From Candidatus Latescibacterota bacterium (lineage in GTDB: Bacteria; JAAXHH01; JACQVL01), in NCBI GenBank assembly GCA_016209865.1, contig JACQVL010000215.1, forward strand, positions 1 through 5,685: a stretch of DNA of 5,685 bases. The letters are read 5' to 3'. Position 1 is the first letter of the stretch. Each line of letters starts with the position of its first letter. Below are positions 1,394-5,683 of this stretch, piece by piece. Made by a program: the position numbers and the translations under genes. The notes under the pieces were generated by a model. The model was given only the letters and a program-made list of their open reading frames with translations, did no database searches and was not told the origin of the DNA.

Positions 1394-1400
1394 CGCGCAA

Positions 1401-1406
1401 CTCTCT
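1401..1406 (-). promoter_or_regulatory. Ribosome binding site of the transglutaminase-like gene
   Basis: On the minus strand, AGAGAG (inside AAAAGAGAG) lies 7 bases before the ATG at 1393. It is a partial Shine-Dalgarno match at normal spacing and supports this start. Confidence 0.55.
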
Positions 1407-1411
1407 TTTAC

Positions 1412-1432
1412 TGACCACCGATCACCGACCAC
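1412..1432. repeat. Heptamer tandem repeat, three units (YGAYCAC)
   Basis: Three abutting 7-bp units, TGACCAC, CGATCAC and CGACCAC on the plus strand, fill the 45-base gap between the aminotransferase stop and the ribosome site of the transglutaminase-like gene. The array is short but each unit fits the same YGAYCAC pattern. It is not coding in any annotated frame. Confidence 0.7.
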
Positions 1433-1438
1433 TATCTT

Positions 1439-2563
1439 TCAGGGCAACGCTTCGACGACGCGCCGCAGTTCGTCCTCCGTGTTGTAATAATGCGGGGACA
1501 CGCGCACCCCGCCGCCACGGCGCGCGGTGATGATGTTCTGGCTGCGGAGCGTCTTGTGCAAGTCCTGCACCGAATACCGGTCGCTGGCGAACGTCACGAT
1601 CCCCGACCATTCGTCGTCCCCGCGTGGGCTGAGGATGCGGTAGTCCTTGCGCCGGAGGCCCTCGATCAATCCGTCCGTCAGCACCCGGAGCCGCTCTTCG
1701 ATCACCTCGATGCCGACATCGAGGATCAGCTCCAGCGCCGCGCCGAGGCCGTAGATGCCCACGGTGTTGAGCGTCCCGCACTCGAACCGCCGGGCATCGG
1801 GGGCGAGGGTGAAATCGTACGTCGCGTAGTCCTCCGCATGGGCGACGGTGTGCCAGCCGACCTCATACAGAGTGATTCGATCCATGACCTCACGCGAACA
1901 GTAGAACATCCCGATGCCTTCCGGTCCCATCAACCATTTGTGGGCGTCGGCGGTGAGGATATCCACAGGCGTCTCCTTGAGGTCGAACTGGAGCGCGCCG
2001 AGCGCCTGGATGCCGTCGACGATGAACAGGATGCCGTGCTCCCGACAGAGCGCCCCGATAGAGGCGATGTCATTCCGAAACCCGTTCCCGTACTCGACGA
2101 GACTGAGGGAGACCGCTCTCGTCCGAGCGTCGACCGCCGCCCGGATGTCATCGACCGCGACCCGGCCAGACCGCTCGGCCACGAACCGGACCTCCACGCC
2201 CCGCCGTTGCAGGTTCAGCCAGGGATAGACGTTGGCCGGGAATTCCACGTTCGTGATGACGACGTTGTCCCCGTGCTTCCACTCGATCCCGTTCGCGGCG
2301 AAGCTCAGGCCTTCCGAGGTATTCTTCACGAACGCGATCTCATCCGGCCCGGCGTTGACCAGCCGGGCGGCGAGGTGCCGGACGGCGTCGTGCCGCGCTT
2401 CCCATTCCCGCGTGTGCATCGCGGCGTTCTCGTGATGATCCTGCACGAATCCTTCGATGGTCGTTCGCACACGCCGTGAGATGGGTGACACTGCCGCGTG
2501 ATTGAGGTACAACCAACGCTCCACCACCGGGAATTCCTGGCGAATCTCGTCGAGGTTCAGCAC
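1439..2563 (-). CDS. Class V PLP-dependent aminotransferase-fold enzyme (isopenicillin N epimerase-like / cysteine desulfurase-like)
   Basis: This is a complete 374-residue protein starting with GTG at 2563, supported by a strong AAAGGAG 6 bases upstream, and ending in TGA. The fold type I class V landmarks are present in order: LNHAAVSP near residue 20; the phosphate-binding KNTSEG at 80-85; the cofactor-ring residue Asp183 in VDGIQALGA with Gln186; the Schiff-base lysine Lys209 in DAHKWLMGPEG; RFECGTLN at 259-266; and a likely carboxylate-binding Arg354 in GVRVSPHYYNT. Length is normal for the family. The mobile cysteine that cysteine desulfurases carry before the C-terminal Arg is absent (ITARRGGGVRVSP), so persulfide chemistry is unlikely. 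An epimerase, lyase or transaminase role is more plausible; the substrate is unknown. It is cytosolic and co-oriented with its neighbours. Family assignment is very secure, the specific reaction is not. Confidence 0.95.
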   Translation of the reverse strand: MLNLDEIRQEFPVVERWLYLNHAAVSPISRRVRTTIEGFVQDHHENAAMHTREWEARHDAVRHLAARLVNAGPDEIAFVKNTSEGLSFAANGIEWKHGDNVVITNVEFPANVYPWLNLQRRGVEVRFVAERSGRVAVDDIRAAVDARTRAVSLSLVEYGNGFRNDIASIGALCREHGILFIVDGIQALGALQFDLKETPVDILTADAHKWLMGPEGIGMFYCSREVMDRITLYEVGWHTVAHAEDYATYDFTLAPDARRFECGTLNTVGIYGLGAALELILDVGIEVIEERLRVLTDGLIEGLRRKDYRILSPRGDDEWSGIVTFASDRYSVQDLHKTLRSQNIITARRGGGVRVSPHYYNTEDELRRVVEALP

Positions 2564-2569
2564 GTAAGG

Positions 2570-2576
2570 CTCCTTT
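2570..2576 (-). promoter_or_regulatory. Strong ribosome binding site deciding the GTG start of the aminotransferase
   Basis: Minus-strand AAAGGAG followed by a 6-base spacer (CCTTAC) and GTG at 2563. This near-ideal Shine-Dalgarno sequence fixes the non-ATG start and agrees with the expected family N terminus (LDEIRQEFP). Confidence 0.85.
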
Positions 2577-2585
2577 ATGATTCGG

Positions 2586-2613
2586 GGGTCAGGGGTCAGG
2601 ATTCAGGGGTCAG
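2586..2613. repeat. Heptamer tandem repeat, four units (GGGTCAG)
   Basis: Four abutting heptamers on the plus strand: GGGTCAG, GGGTCAG, GATTCAG, GGGTCAG. The array ends about 10 bases upstream of the aminotransferase ribosome site. The same heptamer recurs in inverted orientation at 2718-2730 and 2777-2811, so a minus-strand transcript of this gap could fold into a stem of at least 11 pairs. Confidence 0.85.
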
Positions 2614-2629
2614 GAAAGGCAAAACACTA

Positions 2630-2677
2630 TGGATTTCCGCTGAAGTTTATCCCCGCGAAAGCTGGGACGGGAATGAC
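2630..2677. repeat. Diverged hairpin-type dispersed repeat (CCCGCGAAAGC family)
   Basis: About 48 bases running from GGATTTCCGC to GGGAATGAC. The inner part at 2651-2666 is CCCCGC, GAAA, GCTGGG, a hairpin with one mismatched pair and a GAAA loop. The core CCCGCGAAAGC and the outer GGGAATGAC (reverse complement GTCATTCCC) are shared with the repeat at 4891-4912. It lies in the noncoding gap between genes 3 and 4 and is probably a member of a short dispersed palindromic family. The exact ends are uncertain. Confidence 0.65.
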
Positions 2678-2717
2678 AATCTCTGATTTACTTGCCACTC
2701 GTCGCTGAATTTCCCAA

Positions 2718-2730
2718 CCCCTGACCCCTG
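2718..2730. repeat. Inverted copy of the GGGTCAG heptamer array (CCCCTGA) just after the gene 3 stop
   Basis: CCCCTGACCCCTG on the plus strand, directly adjacent to the stop codon of the 316-residue gene (TAG at 2731-2733). It is the reverse complement of the heptamer at 2586-2613. On the transcript the two arrays can pair across roughly 100 bases, enclosing the hairpin-type repeat. No T-run follows, so I do not call it a terminator. Confidence 0.65.
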
Positions 2731-3681
2731 CTACAATAACGAAAGCTGGGTTCTATCTTCTTTTCCTGCTTCTTTTCCTGACCCCTGACCCCCGACTCCT
2801 GACCCCTGTCCATCAAACTGCTCGTATTGTTGGATCAGCGTCTCGAAACCGCCCGTCACTTCGGTCAGGACGAGCCGAAGCCGGGTGGTCTTCATCCAGC
2901 CGGGCGATGTGTCCTGTCCGAACAGGCTGAAGTAGAGGGAATTATGTGCCGCCACGTCGTCGTCCGAGTCATCGTGCGCGTACGTCGTGTCGATCCCGAA
3001 GCAGTCGTCCTGCTGGGCGAAGATGGCGCAGGCGAGCCGGCTGGCCGGGTCGGCGTAGAGACCGATGGGATAGGCGTAGTGCCGCGTCGCCGTGAAATGA
3101 ATCGGGTGCGGCCCATGCTCCCAGCGGCCGTCGTAGAAGAGGCGCGCGCTGGCCGCGTCACGCGGGAAGGCATGATAGCAGCCCTGGGTCGTGTCATTCA
3201 CCGCTGGACGAACGAGGATGGGAGTCCCGGCGTCGTGCTCGTGCCGGGTGTGCCGGACGAAGACGTGCGGGACGAACGCCCGGACGAAGTAGGAGGCCAC
3301 GAACAGCTCGAACGCCGGGTACGAGGCATCCGTTCGCAGGACGATCATCAGGTCGATGATGTTCGGGTCCTTCACCTCATACCGGGTGCGAATGGCGACC
3401 GCGCAGCCGGGGGCCGGCGTCCAGGTGACCTCCACCCCACCGTCGATCAGGCGGCTCTTATGCGGCGTCGTCCGCGCTGCTCCGAGCAGTGCGTCTGCGG
3501 CGAGCAGGCGGTACAGGTTGAGCGCATACAAGTGCGGGTTGATGAGGTCCTGCTCCGGATACGCCCGGTGGACGAGGCTCCGGATGCCATGCGTCGTCCC
3601 GTCCGCCTGGAGGACGCCACGCAGGTCAGCCGTCTCGAACTCGAACAGACCCGGCTCCCGACCCTGACGGATCTCTGCCAT
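2731..3681 (-). CDS. Hypothetical protein, probably beta-rich, with a repeat-encoded C-terminal tail
   Basis: I do not recognise this 316-residue protein. I start it at ATG 3681 (MAEIRQGREPG) because GGAG sits 6 bases upstream. The frame can be extended four codons to a TTG at 3693, but that TTG overlaps the GGAG. Residues 70-135 alternate polar and hydrophobic (GVEVTWTPAPG, RTRYEVKDPNIIDLMIVL, YPAFELFVASYFV). Further on are several His/Asp-rich stretches (RHTRHEHD, YAHDDSDDD at 234-242). The overall look resembles galactose-mutarotase-like beta supersandwich proteins, but this is only an impression. There is no signal peptide or membrane segment. Residues 291-316 are Gly/Ser then Lys/Glu-rich and are encoded by a heptamer repeat plus a 12-bp duplication, so the ancestral protein probably ended near residue 290. 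Codon-level signal and family-like motifs make it a real gene; function is unknown. Confidence 0.85.
   Translation of the reverse strand: MAEIRQGREPGLFEFETADLRGVLQADGTTHGIRSLVHRAYPEQDLINPHLYALNLYRLLAADALLGAARTTPHKSRLIDGGVEVTWTPAPGCAVAIRTRYEVKDPNIIDLMIVLRTDASYPAFELFVASYFVRAFVPHVFVRHTRHEHDAGTPILVRPAVNDTTQGCYHAFPRDAASARLFYDGRWEHGPHPIHFTATRHYAYPIGLYADPASRLACAIFAQQDDCFGIDTTYAHDDSDDDVAAHNSLYFSLFGQDTSPGWMKTTRLRLVLTEVTGGFETLIQQYEQFDGQGSGVGGQGSGKEAGKEDRTQLSLL
2777..2811. repeat. Heptamer array (CCTGACC, five units) inside a coding sequence
   Basis: Plus-strand units CCTGACC, CCTGACC, CCCGACT, CCTGACC, CCTGTCC abut without gaps. They lie inside the 3' end of the 316-residue gene and encode its Gly/Ser-rich tail (GQGSGVGGQGSG). 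Beside them, AGGAAAAGAAG is duplicated at a 12-base offset on the minus strand (2755-2777). The heptamer is the same family as the noncoding arrays at 2586-2613 and 2718-2730. Confidence 0.85.
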
Positions 3682-3687
3682 GATGGT

Positions 3688-3691
3688 CTCC
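3688..3691 (-). promoter_or_regulatory. Ribosome binding site choosing ATG 3681 for the 316-residue gene
   Basis: Minus-strand GGAG with a 6-base spacer before ATG 3681. The in-frame TTG at 3693 would place the ribosome site inside the gene and has only AACGTTCA repeat sequence upstream, so the ATG is preferred. Confidence 0.7.
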
Positions 3692-3694
3692 AAT

Positions 3695-3734
3695 GAACGT
3701 TAACACGTTGGAACGTTCGCACGTTAGAACGTTT
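3695..3734. repeat. 8-bp tandem repeat, five units (RMACGTTN), first array
   Basis: Units GAACGTTA, ACACGTTG, GAACGTTC, GCACGTTA, GAACGTTT follow each other with an exact 8-bp period. Each carries ACGTT, and three carry the palindrome AACGTT. The array begins 3 bases upstream (minus-strand sense) of the GGAG ribosome site of the 316-residue gene, so it forms the 5' leader of that gene. Confidence 0.9.
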
Positions 3735-3774
3735 TCAAAGCAATGAACATACCCTTCTTGAGGTACAGACAGGT

Positions 3775-3822
3775 TAATGTTTCAACGTTCTAACGTTCAA
3801 ACGTTTTAACGTTCCAACGCTA
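3775..3822. repeat. 8-bp tandem repeat, six units (NAACGTTN), second array
   Basis: Units TAATGTTT, CAACGTTC, TAACGTTC, AAACGTTT, TAACGTTC, CAACGCTA with an exact 8-bp period; the outer two are degenerate. It ends 2 bases from the stop codon of the MR/MLE gene. It is in the same 8-bp register as the array at 3695-3734, 40 bases away. Because the core is its own reverse complement, the two arrays are also largely complementary and could pair as a long imperfect stem around the 40-base spacer. Confidence 0.9.
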
Positions 3823-3824
3823 AG

Positions 3825-4877
3825 TTATTTCACCCCCCACCGTTCCAGCGCTTCCTCGTCCAGTTCCACGCCCAGACCGGGTCCTTCCGGCACACGGACG
3901 TGTCCATCCTCGTACTGGAGCGACTCCTTGACCAGGTCGTCCTGCCGGAGGAGAGTTCCGACGATGTCGCTCGGCAGGGTGGCGTTCTTCGTGGCCGCGC
4001 AAGCATGGATGAACGTGGCGTCCGAGATGGCCAGACCGACCCCGGAGCCGTGCCAGGTCGGGATGCCCGCCGCCTCAGCGATCGTGCTGCCCTTCTGGAA
4101 GCCGAGCATCCCCGGGCTGCCTAAGTTGATGTAGTCACACGCCTCACGCTTCACCGCGGCGATGACCTCCTGCGCGTGGTGGAGGTGGAGGGCTAACGGG
4201 ATGTGGAGCTTCTGACGGAGGAGCACGTACCAGTCGAGGTTCTGCTGGGAGACGGGACTCTCAAAACATTCGACGTTGTACCCGGCGAGCCGGTCGGCGA
4301 TGGAGACAGCCAGGGCGGGGGTGCTCAGCTTCTGGTTGGGGTCGATGCGCACCGCGATGTTCGGGCCTGCCGTCTCATGGATGAGCCGGACGCGGTCCGG
4401 GAGGTTGGCGTAGCTGCCGCTGGCTTTAACCTTATAGACCCTGTATCCGTGTTCGGCCGCGTCGCGAGCCTGGTCGGCGGCGTCCTGCGGCGTCCGGTGG
4501 CCGGAACAGAAGGCGACGGGAATCCGGTCATGGAACTTCCCGCCTAAGAGCTGGTAGACCGGGACGCCGATCGCTTTGCCGATGATGTCGTACAGCGCCA
4601 TCTCGAACCCGTCGAGCGTGCCTCCTGAGCACGGGAGTTCCTGGAGGTTGAACTCCAGCGGGCTTTTCCCGATGAACGCGGGGGCGTCGCGGTGGACGGC
4701 GTCTTCGGGCTTGCCCTTGCCCAGTTCGCCCAGGCCGACGATCCCGGCGTCGGTATGGACTTTCATGATGACGATCGGGCGTTGGTCCCAGACGTCAGGC
4801 CCGAATTCCGGGCTGTTCCATAATCCCGGTTTGAGGGGGACGATGACTTTGAATGTCTCGATATGGGTAATGGTCAT
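3825..4877 (-). CDS. Mandelate racemase / muconate lactonizing enzyme family protein (enolase superfamily)
   Basis: This is a 350-residue protein from ATG 4877 (MTITHIETFKV) to TAA. Residues 1-120 form the capping domain, and the rest is the modified TIM barrel. The catalytic KxK motif is Lys149-Val-Lys151. The first two metal ligands are Asp179 in RIDPNQ and Glu206 in FESPV. The third barrel ligand, normally an Asp or Glu after IP, is not acidic: the stretch reads IPLALHLHH, with His231 or His233 nearby. His276 (PTWHGSG) and Asp304 (LPSDIVG) occupy the usual far-side positions, and the end PEGPGLGVELDEEALERW is typical of the family. Members abstract a proton alpha to a carboxylate to racemise, cycloisomerise or dehydrate acids or acid sugars; which applies here is unclear. 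The frame extends six codons to ATG 4895, but that ATG lies inside a dispersed repeat and the family N terminus matches ATG 4877. Neither start has a good ribosome site. Confidence 0.93.
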   Translation of the reverse strand: MTITHIETFKVIVPLKPGLWNSPEFGPDVWDQRPIVIMKVHTDAGIVGLGELGKGKPEDAVHRDAPAFIGKSPLEFNLQELPCSGGTLDGFEMALYDIIGKAIGVPVYQLLGGKFHDRIPVAFCSGHRTPQDAADQARDAAEHGYRVYKVKASGSYANLPDRVRLIHETAGPNIAVRIDPNQKLSTPALAVSIADRLAGYNVECFESPVSQQNLDWYVLLRQKLHIPLALHLHHAQEVIAAVKREACDYINLGSPGMLGFQKGSTIAEAAGIPTWHGSGVGLAISDATFIHACAATKNATLPSDIVGTLLRQDDLVKESLQYEDGHVRVPEGPGLGVELDEEALERWGVK

Positions 4878-4890
4878 AGATGGACGTTGT

Positions 4891-4912
4891 GTCATTCCCG
4901 CGAAAGCGGGAA
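4891..4912. repeat. Perfect hairpin repeat (7-bp stem, GAAA loop) between genes 1 and 2
   Basis: GTCA followed by TTCCCGC, GAAA, GCGGGAA: a perfect 7-bp stem (4895-4901 with 4906-4912) and a four-base loop. The core is shared with the diverged element at 2630-2677, so this is a dispersed repeat and not a unique site. It occupies most of the 44-base gap between the TPP-enzyme stop and ATG 4877. No T-run follows, so it is not a classical terminator; processing, stabilisation or no function at all are equally possible. Confidence 0.8.
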
Positions 4913-4921
4913 ACCATTTGT

Positions 4922-5683
4922 TTACATTTCGTCCTTCGTCCTTTGTCCTTCATCCTTCATTCTGTACCCCGGACAAAACTTCGTCTCGATGTACGGACAC
5001 GGGCTGCGGAAAACGAGCACGCGCAGGCCGGGTGACGTCAGGCCGGTGCGCAAGGCGTCCCGGGTCGCGTCCGCATCCCACGGGTCGATCGTCCTGATGA
5101 GGTCGACTGGACAGGCCTCGACGATCCGTTCGATGCTGAGCGCGGGCGTCTCGTGGCCGAGCGCGTCGATGCTCAGGCCGGGGGTCGGCTGGAACCCGGA
5201 GAGAGCGGTCGTCGCGTTGTCGAGGACGAGCACCAGGATGTTCGTCCGATGATGCGCCGCGTTGAACAGCGCGTTGACGGCCAGGTGGAAGAAATCCGAA
5301 TCGCCGATCACCGCGACGACCGGGTCGGTCACCCCAGCCAGGACTAAACCGGACGCGATGCCGATGCTCGACCCCATCGAGTACTTCACGTCGAGCATCT
5401 CGAACGGTGGAGTGCTGATCTTCACTGCGCAGCCGGGGTCGACGACGTAGACCGGATGGAGGCCCAGGTCTGTGCTCAACCCACGCAGCATCTCGAACAC
5501 GGGAGTGTACGGACAGTTCTCCGGCAGGCCCGCCACGCTGGGCATGTACTTGCGCTCGTCGTCGGGGGAGAAGGCACGAACCGGAGTCAAACCGGGACAG
5601 AAACGCGGGAGGAGTTCCGCGATCTGCCAGCGGAACAGTTCCCCTTCGTGCGGGACGAGCCGGTCGGTCTTGCCCCGGATCGG
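4922..5683 (-). CDS. TPP-dependent 2-oxoacid:ferredoxin oxidoreductase subunit, IorA-like, C-terminal part (cut by window edge)
   Basis: The frame is open at the right edge, so only the last 253 residues are visible, ending in TAA. The visible part matches the C-terminal TPP-binding domain of indolepyruvate:ferredoxin oxidoreductase alpha subunits: a cysteine-containing approach (PENCPYTPVFEML, near 54-66), DPGCAVK at 82-88, MGSSIGIASGL at 103-113, and the TPP/Mg motif GDS (127-129) with exactly 26 residues to Asn156 in VLDN, followed by TTALSGFQPTPG. Such enzymes oxidatively decarboxylate aryl or branched 2-oxoacids to acyl-CoA, passing electrons to ferredoxin. Archaeal-type alpha subunits continue into a two-cluster ferredoxin domain. 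Here the protein stops after SPCPYIETKFCPGY with a Lys/Asp-rich tail encoded by a heptamer repeat, so no cluster domain is present. No beta subunit is visible. A related TPP decarboxylase remains possible. Confidence 0.85.
   Translation of the reverse strand, partial: PIRGKTDRLVPHEGELFRWQIAELLPRFCPGLTPVRAFSPDDERKYMPSVAGLPENCPYTPVFEMLRGLSTDLGLHPVYVVDPGCAVKISTPPFEMLDVKYSMGSSIGIASGLVLAGVTDPVVAVIGDSDFFHLAVNALFNAAHHRTNILVLVLDNATTALSGFQPTPGLSIDALGHETPALSIERIVEACPVDLIRTIDPWDADATRDALRTGLTSPGLRVLVFRSPCPYIETKFCPGYRMKDEGQRTKDEM
4924..4958. repeat. Heptamer tandem repeat (GTCCTTC, four units plus a degenerate one) inside the 3' end of the TPP-enzyme gene
   Basis: Units GTCCTTC, GTCCTTT, GTCCTTC, ATCCTTC at 4931-4958, preceded by a degenerate ACATTTC. 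On the minus strand they read GAAGGAC-type units and encode the last residues (MKDEGQRTKDEM) and the stop codon. The array borders the hairpin repeat at 4891-4912. Confidence 0.85.

Follow-up and report, generated by a model that had tools for sequence, protein, structure and literature searches.

The stretch of DNA analysed here (the window, 5,685 bp) is a whole contig (C169; JACQVL010000215.1) from the genome of a Candidatus Latescibacterota bacterium (GCA_016209865.1; 3.75 Mb in 356 contigs, 83% complete). The minus strand of the window carries five genes, coding for a protein with a thiamine pyrophosphate (TPP)-enzyme C-terminal domain, an enolase-superfamily protein of the MR_MLE type, a 320-aa protein, a class-V aminotransferase and a transglutaminase-like protein. 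A previous inspection of the letters alone (the sequence-only reading) had noticed short tandem repeats in the four gaps of this gene cluster, and these arrays are the subject of the present analysis. We called them with Tandem Repeats Finder (TRF) and with a separate scan of our own, and they are indeed present in all four gaps:

1410-1432, minus strand (G-rich on minus): heptamer array of the GGTCGGT/GGTCAGT family in gap 1, single, 6 bp past the aminotransferase stop codon (1413-1432 according to TRF).
2582-2614, plus strand: GGGGTCA-family heptamer array in gap 2, adjoining the start of the aminotransferase gene, with the G-rich strand into the gap (TRF/scan).
2615-2776, no strand: spacer of the gap 2 pair, in which lie a partial GGGGTCA array (2713-2730) and a degenerate member of the CCCGCGAAAGCGGG / GGGAATGACA palindrome family.
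2777-2811, minus strand: GGGGTCA-family heptamer array in gap 2, inverted partner of 2582-2614, overlapping the 3' end of open reading frame (ORF) 2731-3693.
3695-3733, no strand: octamer array with an ACGT core in gap 3, five cores at 8-bp spacing, adjoining the start of ORF 2731-3693.
3776-3819, no strand: octamer array with an ACGT core in gap 3, inverted partner of 3695-3733, ending 5 bp from the MR_MLE stop codon.
4895-4915, no strand: TTCCCGCGAAAGCGGGAA palindrome, belonging to a dispersed family of which a 20-bp version is found 117 times in the genome.
4928-4963, minus strand: AAGGACG-family heptamer array in gap 4, single, overlapping the 3' end of the TPP-enzyme gene.

The sequence-only reading had assigned one repeat to each gap and had missed that gaps 2 and 3 each contain an inverted pair, with one array at either end of the gap (33 nt and 88% complementary in gap 2, 39 nt and 82% in gap 3). 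It had also placed the arrays almost exactly between a stop codon and the next ribosome site, but those at 2777-2811 and 4928-4963 overlap the ends of coding regions, and the last codons of two genes are thereby supplied by arrays (tail ...GQGSGVGGQGSG... in ORF 2731-3693, tail MKDEGQRTKDEM in the TPP-enzyme gene). The gap 1 array is weak if taken alone (TRF score 33); its family has further members elsewhere in the genome, and the GGGGTCA family is paired at many other loci too.

The closest relative of the MR_MLE protein in the named collection (76% protein identity) is found in a metagenome-assembled genome (MAG) of Candidatus Zixiibacteriota (locus L068). The operon there is syntenic with the window apart from the missing gene of the 320-aa protein (ORF 2731-3693), and it contains none of the arrays of the window. 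Its gaps are short, ca. 36 bp before the transglutaminase gene and ca. 24 bp before the aminotransferase gene; the former is orthologous to gap 1 and has no array, and the TPP-enzyme homologue has a different tail from which the array is absent. The 320-aa protein has no Pfam match, and its ORF is bracketed by two different array pairs. A search of the window against Rfam gave no match to a known structured RNA. The position of arrays after stop codons also brought to mind integron-like attC sites, which were set aside since L068 has the same operon.

All genome-wide statistics rest on sampled stretches, the main sample being 40 contigs (390,684 bp) of the same genome picked arbitrarily, without regard to arrays. 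Period-7 arrays occur in it at 20.2 per 100 kb, while the densities of the remaining periods between 5 and 13 range from 0 to 1.8, and no period-7 array was found in dinucleotide-style shuffles of the sample. At a slightly lower threshold 62 of 88 arrays were located in gaps (14.6% expected, p = 4e-32). The sequence-only reading had considered the heptamer arrays unlikely to have arisen by chance, and had named the genome-wide count of gap enrichment and 7-bp excess as what could refute it; the claim survives this count. Of the 133 gaps measuring 45 bp or more, 41 contained an array, and by extrapolation the whole genome holds several hundred arrays.

Most heptamer arrays belong to about six families, AGTGACG, GGGGTCA (with GTGGTCA), GGTCGGT, GGATTTT, AAGGACG and GGGTTCG, with a few arrays left unassigned, and there is in addition one octamer family with an ACGT core. 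Hence the units of the window, described before as three unrelated local sequences, belong to families that recur across the genome. The lengths of the heptamer arrays group at 23-25 and 30-33 bp (ca. 3.4 and 4.4 units), commonly with four or five conserved cores, and of eight octamer matches in the sample, five measure 36-37 bp, i.e., ACGT(N4ACGT)4 with five cores. A few arrays are longer, e.g., 52 bp in stretch L046. Variation is concentrated in one to three positions per unit, with comparable contrasts between positions in all families. Six positions of the AGTGACG unit vary by 0.5-6%, while the seventh (the N of AGTGAC-N) is non-consensus in 28%; in the GGGTTCG unit two positions reach 38% and 27% and three never vary (0%). 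The variants of the AGTGAC family are in register when counted from the gene side: among 16 four-unit arrays, unit 2 carried a variant in 11, and units 1 and 4 in only one each. This family is flanked on either side by A-rich sequence, and the gene-side flank shows AAAANC.

The placement of the arrays follows simple rules. When the nearest gene edge is a stop codon (median distance 4 bp) the G-rich strand points away from it in 43 of 51 cases, and when it is a start in 22 of 31. Arrays separated by 12-200 bp were convergent in 17/17 cases and of the same family in 16/17, compared to 41% expected (p = 7e-6). When the set was enlarged, also with contigs selected because they carry arrays, 39 of 46 pairs of neighbours were assigned to the same family.

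Some of the arrays are part of compounds. The exact 19-mer GTCGGT-AACAATC-AGTGAC, made of two arrays and a 7-bp linker, was found at six loci with no relation between their outer flanks, and the exact recurrence of this junction indicates that blocks have been copied. In several gaps the elements are nested: an outer array and its partner enclose first an array from a different family and then, in the centre, a palindrome. About half of the pair spacers are single-copy in the sample, including those of all the GGATTTT pairs tested, and others hold the CCCGCGAAAGCGGG palindrome family, which also sits between other array families. The dispersed palindrome TGTCATTCCCGCGAAAGCGGGAATCCA and its degenerate relatives appear in the window at 4895-4915 and 2640-2680, and ATTCCCGCNNAAGCGGGAAT has 117 exact matches in the genome, in many cases a few bp to the inner side of an array. 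GGGGTCA pairs can enclose yet another nested family of palindromes, which resembles decayed heptamer arrays and is rich in GGTCACA/GGTCG (L012, 15892-15970; L015, 4561-4665; L027, 56-162).

Our preferred explanation, which we hold with about even confidence, is that the arrays are dispersed modules similar to the repetitive extragenic palindromic (REP) sequences and bacterial interspersed mosaic elements (BIMEs), probably acting as multi-site protein-binding platforms, and that they are not slippage microsatellites. One module is a block of ca. 24-36 bp in which short conserved cores, four to five in number, follow each other at exact 7-bp steps (8-bp in one family) between short A-rich edges; it is copied blockwise, either alone or in compounds with fixed linkers. 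Such modules take up positions at gene edges, their G-rich strand directed into the gap, and where both ends of a gap are occupied the result is a convergent pair, nearly always of a single family. Each family may have its own DNA-binding protein, cooperative at 7- or 8-bp steps by analogy with the ribbon-helix-helix repressors of the omega/MetJ type. A cooperative DNA-binding protein would account for the regular spacing as well as for the freedom of the positions between cores and for the pairing within families. The box recognised by MetJ is 8 bp long. Omega dimers bind to heptad arrays (PMC4803016). We infer that some process, be it mobilisation in trans or recombination, copies and spreads the modules, with gene ends as the places where insertion would be tolerated.

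There are several points against this explanation. Since in the sample some half of the spacers occur only once, the pairs cannot stem from one element with a common interior. No target-site duplications were found around pairs or singles, and neither an array-binding protein nor a transposase or copying enzyme was found; the Y1 transposase associated with REPs (RAYT, PF01797) was absent from the 83% of the genome that is available. No insertion event was caught directly, because the MAG is fragmented and the relatives compared belong to the same order at the closest. The variability of the GGGGTCA unit derives in part from merging the neighbouring GTGGTCA family, and the distances to start edges are rough because gene starts were taken from a simple codon-usage caller.

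One alternative would be a REP/BIME-like role in RNA, in which the convergent pairs form long stem-loops in the intercistronic transcript for mRNA protection or termination. The density of arrays is 1.78 per kb in co-directional gaps vs. 0.40 in divergent ones, and many are found directly after stop codons, as REPs are (PMC3733652). Gaps 2 and 3 do fold better than shuffled sequences (z = -5.2 and -4.5). However, partners in the same gap were no more complementary to each other than to arrays of the same family from other gaps (p = 0.26, 0.90, 0.996, 0.88 and 0.29), and this lack of mirror covariation suggests that pairing itself is not maintained, in spite of the good folding of the two gaps. 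Besides, many arrays are single and could not fold in this way, and convergent gaps were not enriched (4/16 vs. 35/94, although the numbers are small). We consider this role unlikely.

Polymerase slippage or unequal recombination, producing microsatellites tolerated in gaps like the short tandemly repeated repetitive (STRR) sequences of cyanobacteria, would fit the dominance of period 7, which is also that of the heptameric simple sequence repeats of many bacteria (PMC4692102, PMC4679880), and the few longer arrays such as the 52 bp one. The small number of families, the clustered sizes, the substitutions gathered at one to three positions of the unit, the orientation at gene edges and the block copies of arrays with their linkers are not predicted by open-ended slippage, and the in-register variants, the conservation of specific positions and the A-rich edges also speak against it. 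This explanation is disfavoured and to our mind improbable. The observation of the sequence-only reading is confirmed, and its interpretation partly supported: the enrichment of 7-bp periods in gaps is real, whereas a process making or keeping arrays regardless of sequence is not supported; the parallel drawn with STRR, as cyanobacterial-type heptamer repeats, was a fair one.

The arrays could also be, by happenstance, the terminal inverted repeats of ordinary miniature inverted-repeat transposable elements (MITEs), i.e., non-autonomous transposons. Their paired ends are inverted, of the same family and oriented inwards, the copies are dispersed, and the orthologous operon of L068 is devoid of them. 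However, the missing target-site duplications are hard to reconcile with MITEs, many arrays are single, and the interiors are mostly unshared or have in common only a separate palindrome family that is also found between other array families. We regard MITEs as a rather doubtful explanation. Finally, G-quadruplex elements, as proposed for the GGGAATC arrays of Xanthomonas, would suit the four or five G-runs of the GGGGTCA and GGGTTCG arrays, but are most improbable because the AGTGACG, GGATTTT, AAGGACG and ACGT-octamer families share the architecture and the placement rule without runs of three Gs.

The distribution of the arrays was also studied in relatives. A search for the AGTGAC pattern gave 222 overlapping matches in this genome and none in 15 others of the phylum. 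Array densities were taken from a small sample of each relative. G013, a genome of the same order, has per 100 kb 7.5 arrays with period 7 and 7.1 with period 8, made of different units (AATCACC, AAATCACC, AAAGTAC and others), and in its five inverted pairs, read by eye, the left-hand member is the one richer in G. In G011 we found 2.1 period-7 arrays per 100 kb, and none in the samples from G001 and from the genus g3 (G007, G010 and G012). With a different vocabulary in G013 and few or no arrays in the other relatives, it appears that the design can outlast the replacement of its units and can also be absent. G007 (L077-L081), while lacking period-7 arrays, has period-9 arrays at 9.0 per 100 kb.

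Repeats of this kind have precedents. Like REP and BIME (PMC3733652), the arrays are short, dispersed, 3' of genes, often inverted dimers and in mosaic with other repeats, but REPs are single palindromes of 20-40 bp tagged with GTAG or CGTC, and here the cores are asymmetric and in tandem; neither tag could be recognised beside the arrays of the AGTGAC family. The sites of Geobacter metallireducens and Xanthomonas resemble our arrays in their intergenic location, in their convergent pairs and in having some four to five 7- or 8-mers in tandem (PMC2700814, PMC4692102). In the portion of the Geobacter account covered here (PMC2700814), three classes of "global regulator binding sites" and a GGGACCG family, proposed as IHF/HU sites, have three to five units at each site, arranged in tandem and 7 to 9 nt long; there are several families in one genome, classes 1 and 2 are mostly opposite-strand pairs at variable distance, and the families are missing from the sister species compared. 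The units differ from ours, although the class 3 consensus MTYCTGA fits an ATCCTGA variant unit found here, and the orientation at gene edges and the same-family rule are quantified in our data and not in that portion of the account. The GGGAATC repeats of Xanthomonas and GGGGA(C/T)T repeats of Nostoc have four units in the majority of cases, with 70-75 convergent pairs per Xanthomonas genome, and are conserved at positions 1-4 and 6, variable at 5 and 7, ca. 90% intergenic and near the neighbouring ORF, as is broadly the case here. However, they were described as one family per genome and read as quadruplexes, which is untenable for most of our families (PMC4692102). The STRR sequences of filamentous cyanobacteria are likewise tandem heptanucleotides, intergenic and in many copies, with several kinds per genome (three in Calothrix, as cited in PMC4692102), but our source has a Candidatus Zixiibacteriota MAG and not a cyanobacterium as its nearest named relative, and the inverted-pair and gene-edge rules do not figure in those parts of the STRR descriptions covered here. 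The TAACTGA repeats of marine Beggiatoaceae (PMC4679880) are also intergenic sets of two to six heptamers, many per genome and patchy over phyla; unlike ours they have a single unit and form mainly direct sets immediately upstream of start codons, with one indirect repeat only.

What is new here with respect to these precedents is the presence of several families under one architecture, the same-family pairing rule and the evidence of block copying. The heptamer repeats of Geobacter, Xanthomonas, cyanobacteria and Beggiatoaceae have so far been explained separately, as regulator sites, quadruplexes, slippage or translational control. A genome with several families and one strict architecture allows the common traits (core number, spacing, orientation and pairing) to be separated from the incidental ones (unit sequence and G-runs). 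It also leads to predictions, namely protein binding at 7- or 8-bp steps and the gain or loss of whole blocks at gene ends. It is possible, although we advance it quite tentatively, that this genome, G013, Geobacter and Xanthomonas contain one general kind of element, a gene-edge cap with four to five protein-reading cores that forms convergent same-family pairs and spreads in blocks, its units being swapped from genus to genus while the architecture is kept.

A search for the GGGGTCA-family pattern in 287 other genomes, nearly all of them relatives at the domain level, gave two single matches (G216 and G242), so this unit is not widespread. Both correspond to one GGGGTCA-type heptamer array each, at L107, 1494-1525 (G242) and L108, 1501-1528 (G216), in organisms that are kin at the domain level only.

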